This document shows positions 17,265-55,312 of a stretch of DNA of 64,000 nucleotides, one piece after another. The DNA comes from Pseudomonas sp. MPC6 (GTDB taxonomy: Bacteria > Pseudomonadota > Gammaproteobacteria > Pseudomonadales > Pseudomonadaceae), in the NCBI RefSeq assembly GCF_006094435.1, contig NZ_CP034783.1, positions 2,693,001 to 2,757,000 of the forward strand, given 5' to 3'. Numbering within the stretch: position 1 is the stretch's first letter; each line of letters begins with the position of its first letter. The position numbers and the translations under genes are program-made. The notes under the pieces were generated by a model, which ran no database searches, was not told the DNA's origin, and worked only from the letters and a program-made list of their open reading frames with translations.

Positions 17265-18774
17265 GGTGTTTCTCCTGGATCAGCACCGGATTTTATTTGG
17301 TTTGGATGCCTTTATAGGAGGGCGAGTCTAGATTCGGCAAAGTGTTGCGCCTATGTCGAAACTGCTCAAAGGCGCTGGTGTTTTTTGCCATTTTACGTGA
17401 GATTCTCGCGGTCCCCTGCAGGCGCTGGCTTGCCAGCGAAGGCGATATGTCAGCCAACCTCTCTATTGAATGTCCCGCCGTCTTCGCCAGCAAGCCGGCT
17501 CCTACACGGGAACGGTGCCGTTCACCGACTTCATGTTCACTGAAGATCCCCTGTAGGAGCTGGCTTGCCAGCGAAAGCAGTCTGTCAGTCACCATCTCTA
17601 TTGAATATGCCGCCGTCTTCGCCAGCAAGCCGGCTCCTACACGGATCGGTGCCATTCACCGACTTCATGTTCACTGAAGATCCCCTGTAGGAGCTGGCTT
17701 GCCAGCGAAAGCGGTCTGTCAGTCACCATCTCTATTGAAGATGCCGCCGTCTTCGCCAGCAAGCCGGCTCCTACACGGGAACGGTGCCGTTCACCGACTT
17801 CATGTTCACTGAGATCCCCTGTAGGAGCTGGCTTGCCAGCGAAAGCGGTCTGTCAGTCACCACCTCTATTGAATATGCCGCCGTCTTCGCCAGCAAGCCG
17901 GCTCCTACACGGGAACGGTGCCGTTCACCGATTTCATGTTCACTGAAGATCCCCTGTAGGAGCTGGCTTGCCAGCGAAAGCGGTCTGTCAGTCACCACCT
18001 TTACCAAATCTGCCGCCGTCTTCGCCAGCAAGCCGGCTCCTACACGGGAACGGTGCCGTTCACCGACTTCATGTTCACTGAGATCCCCTGTAGGAGCTGG
18101 CTTGCCAGCGAAAGCGGTCTGTCAGTCACCATCTCTATTGAAGATGCCGCCGTCTTCGCCAGCAAGCCGGCTCCTACACGGGAACGGTGCCGTTCACCGA
18201 TTTCATGTTCACTGAAGATCCCCTGTAGGAGCTGGCTTGCCAGCGAAAGCGGTCTGTCAGTCACCACCTCTATTGAATATGCCGCCGTCTTCGCCAGCAA
18301 GCCGGCTCCTACACGGGAACGGTGCCGTTCACCGATTTCATGTTCACTGAAGATCCCCTGTAGGAGCTGGCTTGCCAGCGAAAGCGGTCTGTCAGTCACC
18401 ACCTCTATTGAATATGCCGCCGTCTTCGCCAGCAAGCCGGCTCCTACACGGGAACGGTGCCGTTCACCGACTTCATGTTCACTGAAGATCCCCTGTAGGA
18501 GCTGGCTTGCCAGCGAAAGCGGTCTGTCAGTCACCACCTTTACCAAATCTGCCGCCGTCTTCGCCAGCAAGCCGGCTCCTACACGGGAACGGTGCCGTTC
18601 ACCGACTTCATGTTCACTGAAGATCCCCTGTAGGAGCTGGCTTGCCAGCGAAAGCGGTCTGTCAGTCACCATCTCTATTGAAGATGCCGCCGTCTTCGCC
18701 AGCAAGCCGGCTCCTACACGGGAACGGTGCCGTTCACCGACTTCATGTTCACTGAAGATCCCCTGTAGGAGATT

Positions 18775-19737
18775 CTATGTTTGGGGGGAAGCCCCAAAAA
18801 CTGGATTTGGCTGATATTCGCTCTGGTTCTTCATCAGGGCGAATGCCACCCGTGCCAGCTTGCGAGCCAGGATGACCAGCACTTGAGTCGTCTTTAATCC
18901 CCGCTCCAGATAGCGTTCGTAAAACGGCTTCCAGGTCTTTGAGCGACTGGCAGCCATCGCCGCGTTATGCAGCAGGCGCCGTATCTCTGAGTCACCTTTC
19001 TTGGTCAGCTTTCGACGTCCGTTCATCTGCCCCGAATCAGAGACTCTCAAATCCATTCCAAGAAACGCGATATAGGCGTCACCACTGGCGAAGTCGCCGC
19101 GTTGAAATGCCATCGTCAGTGCGGTGGCGGTAAGAAAACCGACCCCCTCTACGGCCTGGCAGCGTTTGACTTGCTCGAGCAGACCCGCCTCTTTTACGAC
19201 GTCCAACAGCTTCTTCTGGATGAGTAAATCCAATCGGCCCATGGCAGCGATCTGTTGTTTGAATGCCGCTTTCAGCAGCGGTTCGTCGTTCCAGCTTTGA
19301 GTCAAACTGACACGCGCCTGGACCAATGTCGCTCGTCTTCGAAGCAGGCTTTGAAGCTTGGTATAGACCTTCGGCGGCGGGCTCCAAGGACGTAGCTCTT
19401 CCTCTTCGTTCTTCAAGTAACGCGCCAGTAAACGGGCGTCGCTGGCATCTGTTTTGGCGCGGCCACCCACTCCTTTGCGGTAATTACTCAAACGGAAGCC
19501 GTCGATGACATAGACGGTATGTCCCATTGCATGAGCCAGCTCAACCGTATCCAGGTGATAGATATTGGTGGCTTCAATAGCGATGGCGCTGTTTGCAGGT
19601 AACGTTTTCAGCCACTTTGTAAGAGACGGTTTATCGTTTGACACGGCCAACAGCAGATCCGTGTCGGCCTGATAGACCACCACTTCGGCCTTGGCGACAT
19701 CCACTCCGACTACAGAACGCGAGACACTCATTGCCAC
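18775..19737 (-). CDS. IS110-family transposase (DEDD recombinase)
   Basis: A 320-residue transposase. The N-terminal RuvC-like domain shows VGVDVAK (Asp13), AIEATNIYH (Glu55) and KTDASDARLL (Asp97, Asp100). The C-terminal Tnp20-type domain includes AVEGVGFLTATAL and the region VSDSGQMNGRRKLTKKG with the likely catalytic serine (Ser235), then GDSEIRRLLHNAAM. A GTG at 19737 is preferred because GGAG lies 8 bases upstream; an ATG follows two codons later. The reading frame is intact, so the element may be active. Its stop codon falls three bases from the end of the element, so the last codons overlap the presumed donor-recognition sequence. Confidence 0.93.
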   Translation of the reverse strand: MAMSVSRSVVGVDVAKAEVVVYQADTDLLLAVSNDKPSLTKWLKTLPANSAIAIEATNIYHLDTVELAHAMGHTVYVIDGFRLSNYRKGVGGRAKTDASDARLLARYLKNEEEELRPWSPPPKVYTKLQSLLRRRATLVQARVSLTQSWNDEPLLKAAFKQQIAAMGRLDLLIQKKLLDVVKEAGLLEQVKRCQAVEGVGFLTATALTMAFQRGDFASGDAYIAFLGMDLRVSDSGQMNGRRKLTKKGDSEIRRLLHNAAMAASRSKTWKPFYERYLERGLKTTQVLVILARKLARVAFALMKNQSEYQPNPVFGASPQT

Positions 19738-19776
19738 AAAGAAAGCTCCGGGTTAGGGTTTAAAGGCTTGTCGGGG

Positions 19777-19920
19777 CTTCACCATTGCGCTGGCTTGCTT
19801 CTATCGTCGGTCATGGCCGATGCATTCCTTATCGGCGCTTTGGTGAAGGGGTGGGGCGAAGTCTCCCACGGTCTGTACTGGCTAGAGTCAGATGCTGGCT
19901 TTTAGTCCCACCACCCCTAC
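19777..19920 (-). ncRNA. Predicted IS110 bridge RNA (target and donor guide loops)
   Basis: Read on the minus strand. Loop 1: stem GGGGTGG/CCACCCC (19911-19917 with 19848-19854) encloses AAGCCAGC (19894-19901), hairpin CTGACT...AGTACAG (19873-19891) and GTGGGAG (19863-19869). AAGCCAGC equals the left target next to and including the first core base; GTGGGAG pairs with the core plus right target CTCCTAC with one G-T wobble. Loop 2: stem CTTCACC/GGTGAAG (19842-19848 with 19777-19783) plus GCGC/GCGC encloses GGAAT (19824-19828), hairpin TCGG...CCGA (19807-19820) and GATAGAAG (19798-19805). These resemble the left donor AGAAT and, with one mismatch, the complement of core plus right donor CTTGTATC-like end (CTTGTATG). 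The order and topology match published IS110 bridge RNAs; ends and folding were judged by eye. Confidence 0.65.
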
Positions 19921-20391
19921 AAGTCTAAACATACAAGCTGGCTTGCCAGCGAAGGCGGTCTGTCAGTCACCATCTCTATTGAAGATGCCGCCGTCTTCGC
20001 CAGCAAGCCGGCTCCTACATGGGAACGGTGCCGTTCACCGACTTCATGTTCACTGAAGATCCCCTGTAGGAGCTGGCTTGCCAGCGAAAGCGGTCTGTCA
20101 GTCACCACCTTTACCAAATCTGCCGCCGTCTTTGTCAGTGATCACTAATGCACCACACACCCTGGGCTTGGTAATCCAGCACATACAGCTGAATGACAAT
20201 TTTCTAATGAATTGCGGCACCGGGTACGGCGGGCGACCGGCGGCTCCCGGGGTGGGACCGGCGCCACCACGATAGGAAACGAGGGTGCTGGCTACGCTGA
20301 CAACTCGCTGACAAGTTTGTAATCTCCATGGCTTCAACCCTCTACGATGGAATCGGATAGAGGCCATTCACACCGCTCAAGGAGGTGCGTC

Positions 20392-54788: not shown

Positions 54789-55115
54789 CTTCATAGTTAC
54801 CCGCCACCTGGCCGCGACACGACAGGCGCATAGAAGGTCCGTCTGAGCGCGCATTTTGTTTTTTTGGGCTTGATAACACAATAAAAAAAATCCCTTCAAA
54901 AAGTACCATATTCAGTTCATCAAGGAGAACATGACTTGAACTCCCGGCGCTCGTGTTCTTACTCCAGCGATCTCGGCCGGCTGCAAAGCCAGCTCGACAT
55001 CGGTCGCGCTCCATTACGCTGAAAATTAAATCTCAAACAGCTAGCAAAATCCACCGGGCTTGCGCTTCGGGAGCCACCTCGCTAATCTTCTCCTGTCGCT
55101 GCCAATTCAGCGATC

Positions 55116-55243
55116 GGGTGTGGTAGCCCGGTTACTTCATAGACCCAGAACGCCTCAGGGCGTTTTTTTGTGCTGGCTGCTTTGTGGCGGCTGTGCATGG
55201 GAGGCTTCGGCCTGCCGGGTTCCTATGACCGGTCTACCACCCC
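55116..55243 (+). ncRNA. Structured leader RNA upstream of the DUF6124 gene
   Basis: GGG(T)GTGGTAG (55116-55126) can pair with CTACCACCCC (55234-55243), a 10-bp long-range stem with one bulge, reinforced by CCCGG/CCGGG inside. The enclosed 105 bases contain a terminator-like hairpin at 55149-55169 and further GC-rich inverted repeats. About 70 bases follow before the gene. Together this looks like a cis-regulatory leader or attenuator, or an independent small RNA. The upstream part of the gap (54789-55115) shows nothing else. The family is not one I can name. Confidence 0.5.
55149..55169 (+). terminator. Terminator-like hairpin inside the leader
   Basis: AACGCC (55149-55154) pairs with GGCGTT (55159-55164) and runs into seven T residues (55163-55169). 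It lies between the promoter region and the DUF6124 gene, so it would end transcription early unless overridden. Confidence 0.75.
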
Positions 55244-55312
55244 GTGTACAGCCGTCTCCTTATTTTGCGTGGTAGCGGATAGGGAGGGGCTCACTTTCAT
55301 AGGAGCTTCACA

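Follow-up and report, generated by a model that had tools for sequence, protein, structure and literature searches.

A Pseudomonas IS110-group element with a predicted bridge RNA that matches both halves of its REP insertion site

Introduction

Does the non-coding region upstream of an IS110-group transposase gene that splits a Pseudomonas REP encode the RNA that guides the element to that repeat? Bridge RNAs were established with IS621, for which 144 of 173 insertion sites mapped to E. coli REPs, and were predicted in 85.7% of catalogued IS110s (PMC11208160). An extended-data legend of the same report places ISPpu10 among six elements with predicted guides, and ISPpu9 and ISPpu10 are each described as lying in REPs (7/7 copies; PMC1525189). 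A bridge RNA programmed for Pseudomonas REPs was therefore to be expected from the IS621 and ISPpu10 reports.

Several known systems offer themselves for comparison. ISPpu10 of Pseudomonas putida, by its published description alone, is likewise an IS110 element in Pseudomonas REPs. ISPpu9, also of P. putida and also REP-inserted, is described as producing a small RNA from the transposase leader region; this RNA, Asr9, is antisense to the transposase gene, a second RNA (Ssr9) comes from downstream, the direct repeat is given as AG, and the RNAs are interpreted as expression control (PMC8450116). The seekRNA elements of the IS1111 group share a related recombinase and RNA-guided target choice, and differ in having their longer non-coding region downstream of the transposase gene, subterminal inverted repeats and a reversed guide order (PMC11187229).

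Results

The 64,000-nucleotide stretch of Pseudomonas sp. MPC6 DNA analysed here (the window) contains, by direct reading, a Pseudomonas REP split at a CT core by an IS110-group element on the minus strand (18772-19937; features below are on this strand unless stated otherwise). The element measures 1166 bp with one CT core counted, its ends being set by 11 full-length copies in the window's genome that encode an identical protein between different flanks and carry CT at both ends. In the window copy the junctions read AAGCCAG-CT-TGTATG on the left and ATAGAAT-CT-CCTACAGG on the right, and CT is thus common to target and donor. The left target AAGCCAG with the left core CT occupies 19936-19944 and the right core CT with the right target CCTAC 18765-18771; the right donor TGTATG lies at 19930-19935 and the left donor ATAGAAT at 18772-18778. 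All 11 copies sit at AAGCC[A/C]G-CT-CC[C/T]AC, with AAGCCAG as the left half in 7 and AAGCCCG in 4, and with CTCCTAC as the right half in 6 and CTCCCAC in 5. The window element itself stands at the end of a tandem array (17412-18771) of 10.1 copies of a 135-bp unit that carries REPs in both orientations.

The element encodes a transposase of 320 aa (18775-19737) that matched Pfam PF01548 and PF02371 and scored above the cut-off for NCBIfam NF033542 (IS110 family RNA-guided transposase). It has relatives of solved structure in the transposases of ISCro4 and IS621, and is 27% identical to the latter. Residues D13, E55, D97, D100 and S235 aligned with the catalytic D11, E60, D102, D105 and S241 of IS621 (numbered as in PMC11208158). 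The protein has the RuvC-like DEDD and Transposase_20 domains of the IS110 group with their catalytic D, E, D, D and S. The non-coding end is also on the side typical of this group, with ~200 bases upstream of the gene and ~3 downstream; the longer downstream region of the IS1111 group is absent from the window element.

An Rfam scan at gathering scores gave zero matches inside the element. Elsewhere in the window (55082-55262, plus strand) the same database matched C4 antisense RNA, its a1/b1 targets and isrK, presumably a phage immunity region of P1/P4 type.

The region upstream of the transposase gene carries AAGCCAGC, the left target, and GTGGGAG on the two sides of a hairpin. With RNA position p corresponding to window base 19938-p, the putative left target guide is AAGCCAGCA (19893-19901), the hairpin lies at 19873-19891 and the putative right target guide GTGGGAG at 19863-19869. 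A first-pass annotation of this DNA had described a left guide identical to the left target up to the first core base, and a right guide across a hairpin complementary to core plus right target CTCCTAC with one G-T wobble. Both descriptions held: the left guide agrees with left target plus core in 8 of its 9 bases, only the last differing, and GTGGGAG pairs with CTCCTAC at 7/7 positions including the one G-T. GTGGGAG is also the perfect complement of CTCCCAC, the right half at 5 of the 11 same-genome copies. A strict test required a 7-base left guide without mismatch and, 15-60 bases further on, a right guide containing no more than one wobble. Of 20,000 dinucleotide-shuffled versions of the region 6 passed this test, as did 2 of the 1232 half-overlapping segments of the same length taken from the rest of the window. 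When one mismatch per side was allowed, 652 of 20,000 shuffles passed.

Relatives were collected from named contigs and from a set of 398 genomes of the genus, at least 55 of which, the window's own included, held a match at E <= 1e-40. A first set of 57 loci, from the named contigs, gave nine located elements (L001-L005 and L007-L010), most of the others being partial; the matches listed gave 99 further copies from relatives and one from the window's genome, for 151 located copy rows with the window counted twice. L062 (the window copy), L010 (short flank) and L006 (without left end) were dropped, and L194, L195 and L196, which stood outside the first covariation test, were later included with hand-set anchors. 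Some copies entered twice from two collections, judged for example by matching flanks (L002/L071, L003/L068, L004/L078, L008/L170), so that the 149 rows used below represent fewer independent copies. The contig of L009 bears the label of a Natronospira metagenome assembly; the remaining named copies came from Pseudomonas. At the DNA level the element had no match in the E. coli genomes searched, and a protein search of plasmids returned 1816 records whose best place was always below 60% identity, serving only as the source of the IS621 copy.

All located rows had CT at the left junction, after the left ends of L003 and L068 were corrected, a constancy that is partly by construction because part of the core was in the search anchors (T in the left one, CT in the right one). 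The right half among 148 copies was CTCCCAC in 135, CTCCTAC in 11, CTCTCAC in 1 and missing in 1. Of 148 copies, 147 had CCATAGAAT or ACATAGAAT as left donor and one lacked the end, with AGAATCT as search anchor and only the preceding bases free to vary; TTGTATG was the anchor at the other end, which makes the right donor constant by construction in the located copies.

The collection also held some unusual copies and remnants. L194 and L195 are elements of 1371 bp, ~200 longer than most, in which the upstream region is normal and the excess falls in or after the transposase gene. In L002 and L071, from a genome labelled Pseudomonas triticifolii, two copies oriented alike are separated by ~1.35 kb, and both occupy REP-like sites. 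L206 226-250 (near G000:C4:4654125) is a left-end relic at an AAGCTCG target in which ~25 element bases remain, and L207 and L208 are right-end relics that retain the last residues of a related transposase, at 74% and 78% DNA identity to the window element.

We set the RNA structure by hand from the fold of the window copy and alignment A1 (24 representative sequences). It has 27 pairs in five helices: a closing helix, a target-loop stem, the hairpin between the target guides, a donor-loop stem and a donor hairpin. Across the alignment 96% of cells were paired, and 8 pairs had changed on both sides in 28 cells, compared to 2.8 pairs and 6.3 cells after shuffling (0/500 shuffles). Compensatory change in the stems had been proposed as a test in the first-pass annotation; it was found, in 3 of 6 pairs of the inter-guide hairpin and 2 of 4 pairs of the donor hairpin among others. 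Sliding the structure lowered the paired share to 38-47%. The number of further pair types was the less extreme of the five structure measures (13 vs 10.6 in shuffles, 21/500 reaching it). The structure proposed by RNAalifold had 29 pairs, of which 7 had changed on both sides. From our reading of the alignment, pairs of the GGAGGAGG group are undercounted because MAFFT misaligns its target-loop stem. A two-loop non-coding RNA structure under selection, as in the IS110 group, is thus indicated by the 8 both-side pairs that none of 500 shuffles matched.

The RNA body probably extends, slightly beyond its first placement, to the closing helix (CTTG..GGG / CCC..CAAG) at about 19923-19767, where RNAalifold and the compensatory changes in A1 put its ends. 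A covariance model built from A1, which includes the window copy, gave a single match in the window scan, the bridge RNA region itself, at 216 bits, and an equal 216.3 bits at all 11 same-genome copies. One extra match of 93 nt in the window's genome proved to be the left-end relic L206. At the IS621 locus the best match of this model anywhere was 5.5 bits (E 0.13), with none higher over the RNA region; the window RNA is not recognisable as a homologue of the IS621 RNA, a property that would mark an IS621-like subgroup. The stem-loop that precedes the target loop in the IS621 consensus (PMC11208160) was likewise absent from the consensus fold of the window family, which has the closing helix instead.

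The second loop was examined against the element's own ends. The candidate left donor guide AAGGAATG (19823-19830) contains GGAAT where the donor has AGAAT, a match with one G-T as first annotated, and the exact AGAAT was present in this guide in 11 of the 24 sequences of A1 (window included). The hairpin of the donor loop lies at 19807-19820. The right donor guide had been placed at GATAGAAG (19805-19798), which has one mismatch in 7 bases and two in 8 to the complement of core plus right donor. This placement was rejected: CAAG, directly 3' of it (19797-19794), pairs exactly with core plus TG, and the corrected register AT-AGAA-G-CAAG occupies 19794-19804. CAAG was present in 147 of 148 copies, all 147 with a purine before it and the pattern RAYA-NNN-R-CAAG, in which the three bases ahead of the purine are variable; only L073, whose region is shortened, departs from it. 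In the right donor guide of IS621, A157-U158 is followed by flipped-out U159 and U160, by G161 opposite T12, and by C162-G165 (PMC11208158). The pattern found here corresponds to this AU-UU-G-CAAG, and we read the present layout as AT, four looped-out bases, a purine and CAAG. Candidate donor guides that match the element's own ends are present; these ends barely vary and were partly search anchors.

Two further positions are possible handshake bases. In the target loop, the base at 19862 is A in 148/148 copies, and donor position 7, opposite it, was T in the 147 copies with both ends, this T lying within the right-end search anchor. In the donor loop, the base following CAAG (C at 19793 in the window) combined with target position 7 as C/G7 in 139 copies, G/C7 in 2, T/C7 in 5 and T/G7 in 1 (n = 147). 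We take a donor-loop handshake that follows the target as a hint only, because L194/195 show the sole paired change.

The first-pass annotation had also asked for co-variation of the guides with the target halves among relatives, and this was observed: different REP halves mostly go with corresponding left guides. The 149 rows hold 20 distinct left guides. With one row per guide, each paired with its commonest target, 113 of 140 positions were identical to the guides' own targets, compared to 80.1 ± 4.6 when targets were shuffled among guides; the shuffled maximum was 105 and 0 of 50,000 shuffles reached the observed value, counts that are not exact probabilities because the sequences are related by descent. 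Without L194-L196 the result was 101/126 vs 78.3 ± 3.8 (maximum 99, 0/20,000). Left-guide identity was 0.75 in register and fell to 0.12-0.43 when the window of comparison was slid by 1-4 bases. Row by row, the left guide matched at 7/7 positions in 64 rows, at 6 in 50, at 5 in 14 and at 4 or fewer in 21. Some guides, AGCTCGT and AGCCTAG, fitted the fixed register poorly; for AGCTCGT, part of the poor rows, the stretch that matches appears displaced by two bases.

Unusual targets were matched as well, namely GAAGCCG in L009, AAGTTCG in L179-181 (6/7) and AGCCGCC in L194/195. By position, identity in 44 unique pairs was clearly above shuffles at positions 4-6 (1-8 of 2000 reaching it), with a weaker excess at 1-3 (32-74 of 2000) and none at the nearly constant position 7. 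L150 and L163, whose transposase genes are ~85% identical in DNA, carry different guides, each of which fits its own target. Three copies in G290 (L184, L186 and L185) have transposase genes that are 98.5-99.6% identical and the left guides AGGCTCG and AAGCTCG, all at AAGCTCG targets; one guide base may have changed there recently. The right guide was nearly constant, apart from GTAGGAG paired with the target CTCCTAC in L179-181 and L196, and from the imperfect pairs described below. Left and right target guides that match the site and vary with it are as expected of the IS110 group.

On which strand the RNA is made is a separate question, since guide complementarity is symmetric between the strands and the guide match alone cannot fix it. 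Thermodynamic folding failed as support for a sense RNA: the antisense was more stable in 22 of 23 sequences, by 0.7-25.4 kcal/mol, and in the window copy the sense fold was slightly better than shuffles (z -1.5) with the antisense at z -4.1. Because folding alone lent the sense RNA no support, covariation was used instead, and because the antisense folds better in 22/23, we infer the strand rather than read it from the fold. A promoter scan of the linear region gave no match, with 0.6 expected by chance.

These data give some weight to a reading in which the guide RNA is read from the antisense strand, which overlaps with our preferred explanation, or in which the region mainly yields an antisense regulator over the transposase leader like Asr9 in ISPpu9. 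Inside the region, at 19805-19822, the antisense strand has a terminator-like hairpin, one of 4 such sites in the scanned stretch where 1.3 were expected, and the ~180 nt antisense RNA over the ISPpu9 transposase leader raised transposition when overproduced (PMC8450116). Against this reading, loop order and register on the sense strand agree with IS621. The imperfections of the right guide point the same way: on the sense strand they are G-T in 9 copies from 4 genomes (GTGGGAG at CTCCTAC in 8 and at CTCTCAC in 1) compared to A-C in 2 copies from 1 genome (GTGAGAG at CTCCCAC in L194/195). In the donor guides, G replaces A opposite T, again the wobble direction of the sense strand. Mismatches of the left guide showed little bias (22 sense and 19 antisense wobbles in 44 unique pairs). 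The AG direct repeat of ISPpu9 is given as its authors write it (PMC8450116); if this is in the direction of the transposase gene, the RNA strand there would differ geometrically from the one here. We consider an antisense origin or function rather unlikely; given that a guide RNA is made from the region at all, its sense-strand origin appears probable, with good confidence.

We then compared insertions with the sites available in each of 18 host genomes, where sites of five REP variants, each defined by its left half and CTCCYAC, were counted. The window's genome has 922 AAGCCAG, 371 AAGCCCG, 304 AAGCTCG, 28 AGGCTCG and 466 AAGCCGG sites, with 7, 4, 0, 0 and 0 insertions, respectively. For 65 copies in 16 genomes, guides and targets were identical at 395 of 455 positions, compared to 368.7 ± 5.8 when targets were drawn by availability (maximum 391, 0/20,000), a test that treats co-inherited copies as independent; with sense-strand wobble allowed, the values were 416 vs 400.8 ± 4.4 (3/20,000). 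Seven copies whose target is outside the five variants (L161, L084, L154, L156 and L179-181) were left out, and G018 has none of the five. By identity, G382, with its shifted guide, and G111 came out a little under expectation. Which REP variant an element uses within a genome is predicted by its guide.

A less expected pattern was seen between hosts. In 10 of 14 genomes the variant nearest to the guide was also, among the five counted, the one with most sites in that host, with G296, G205, G039 and G214 as misfits; of the 18 genomes, G018, G094, G301 and G382 were set aside since their guide or target did not agree with the five variants or with the fixed register. Guide-host matches summed to 86.35, more than in any of 20,000 trials in which guides were reassigned among hosts (77.2 ± 2.3). 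Because REPs and elements are both shared among related hosts, this tendency of guides to fit the counted REP variant most frequent in the host is no more than suggestive.

The match to the site could in principle have arisen with a protein, or the structure of the REP hairpin, choosing the insertion site and the guide-like stretches being REP fragments acquired by chance. REPs are palindromic, and a REP-targeting IS is known from another family, the IS3-family ISPsy8 (PMC1525189). The left-guide covariation, the choice among variants within genomes, the sharp dependence on register, the position of the guides on opposite sides of a conserved hairpin and the IS621-like layout (as described in PMC11208160 and PMC11208158) all speak against this explanation, which we regard as very improbable. 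That the region is merely a structured leader or attenuator of the transposase gene, directly upstream of which it lies with its closing helix ending ~30 bases ahead of the start codon, is hardly credible, as it leaves the covariation with flanking host DNA outside the element unexplained.

Discussion

Guide match, covariation, compensatory stems and variant choice together support the proposal that the upstream region encodes a bridge RNA, with the corrections to register and extent given above. On this sequence evidence, the region very likely gives rise to a guide RNA, from either strand, that matches both target and donor. Its programming for a REP, as originally suggested, is in line with the 11 copies with identical transposase at such sites, and the order, side and topology proposed for the loops stand, with the layout of IS621. 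By homology to IS621, the transposase of this mobile element would bind the bridge RNA encoded in its upstream non-coding region. One loop would pair with both halves of the REP target around CT, the left guide with the bottom strand and the right guide with the top strand, and the other loop with the joined ends of the excised circle. Strand exchange at CT would then insert the element with no target bases lost.

REP targeting through a bridge RNA has been proven for IS621 and predicted for ISPpu10; the window element adds a further example. As far as the two reports describe IS621 (PMC11208160, PMC11208158), the elements share a DEDD/S recombinase, a CT core, an RNA region upstream of the transposase gene and insertion in REPs, as well as a target loop followed by a donor loop, a 9-base left guide plus one U, a hairpin and a right guide, and a right donor guide that ends in CAAG. 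They differ in the REP and the guides, and in the right donor guide, where we read four looped-out bases in the window RNA compared to two in IS621.

What is added, then, is a well-supported REP-targeting bridge RNA in Pseudomonas, with relatives in which ~20 naturally occurring left guides can be set against the targets found with them. Most of the examined hosts hold hundreds of REP sites in several competing variants. With this many natural guides and competing sites, specificity, wobble tolerance and natural reprogramming can therefore be measured from genomes alone. We tentatively suggest, at somewhat less than even confidence, that the bridge RNA of this lineage has undergone repeated natural reprogramming, a small number of point changes to its left guide sufficing to follow each host's commonest REP variant, so that element and host repeats co-evolve; the donor-loop handshake base may follow the target too (G with C7 in L194/195). 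No report of guides following host REPs was found in literature searches that were not worded for this question, which is weak evidence of absence. At the level of the family, the reprogramming pattern merits a proper phylogenetic test.
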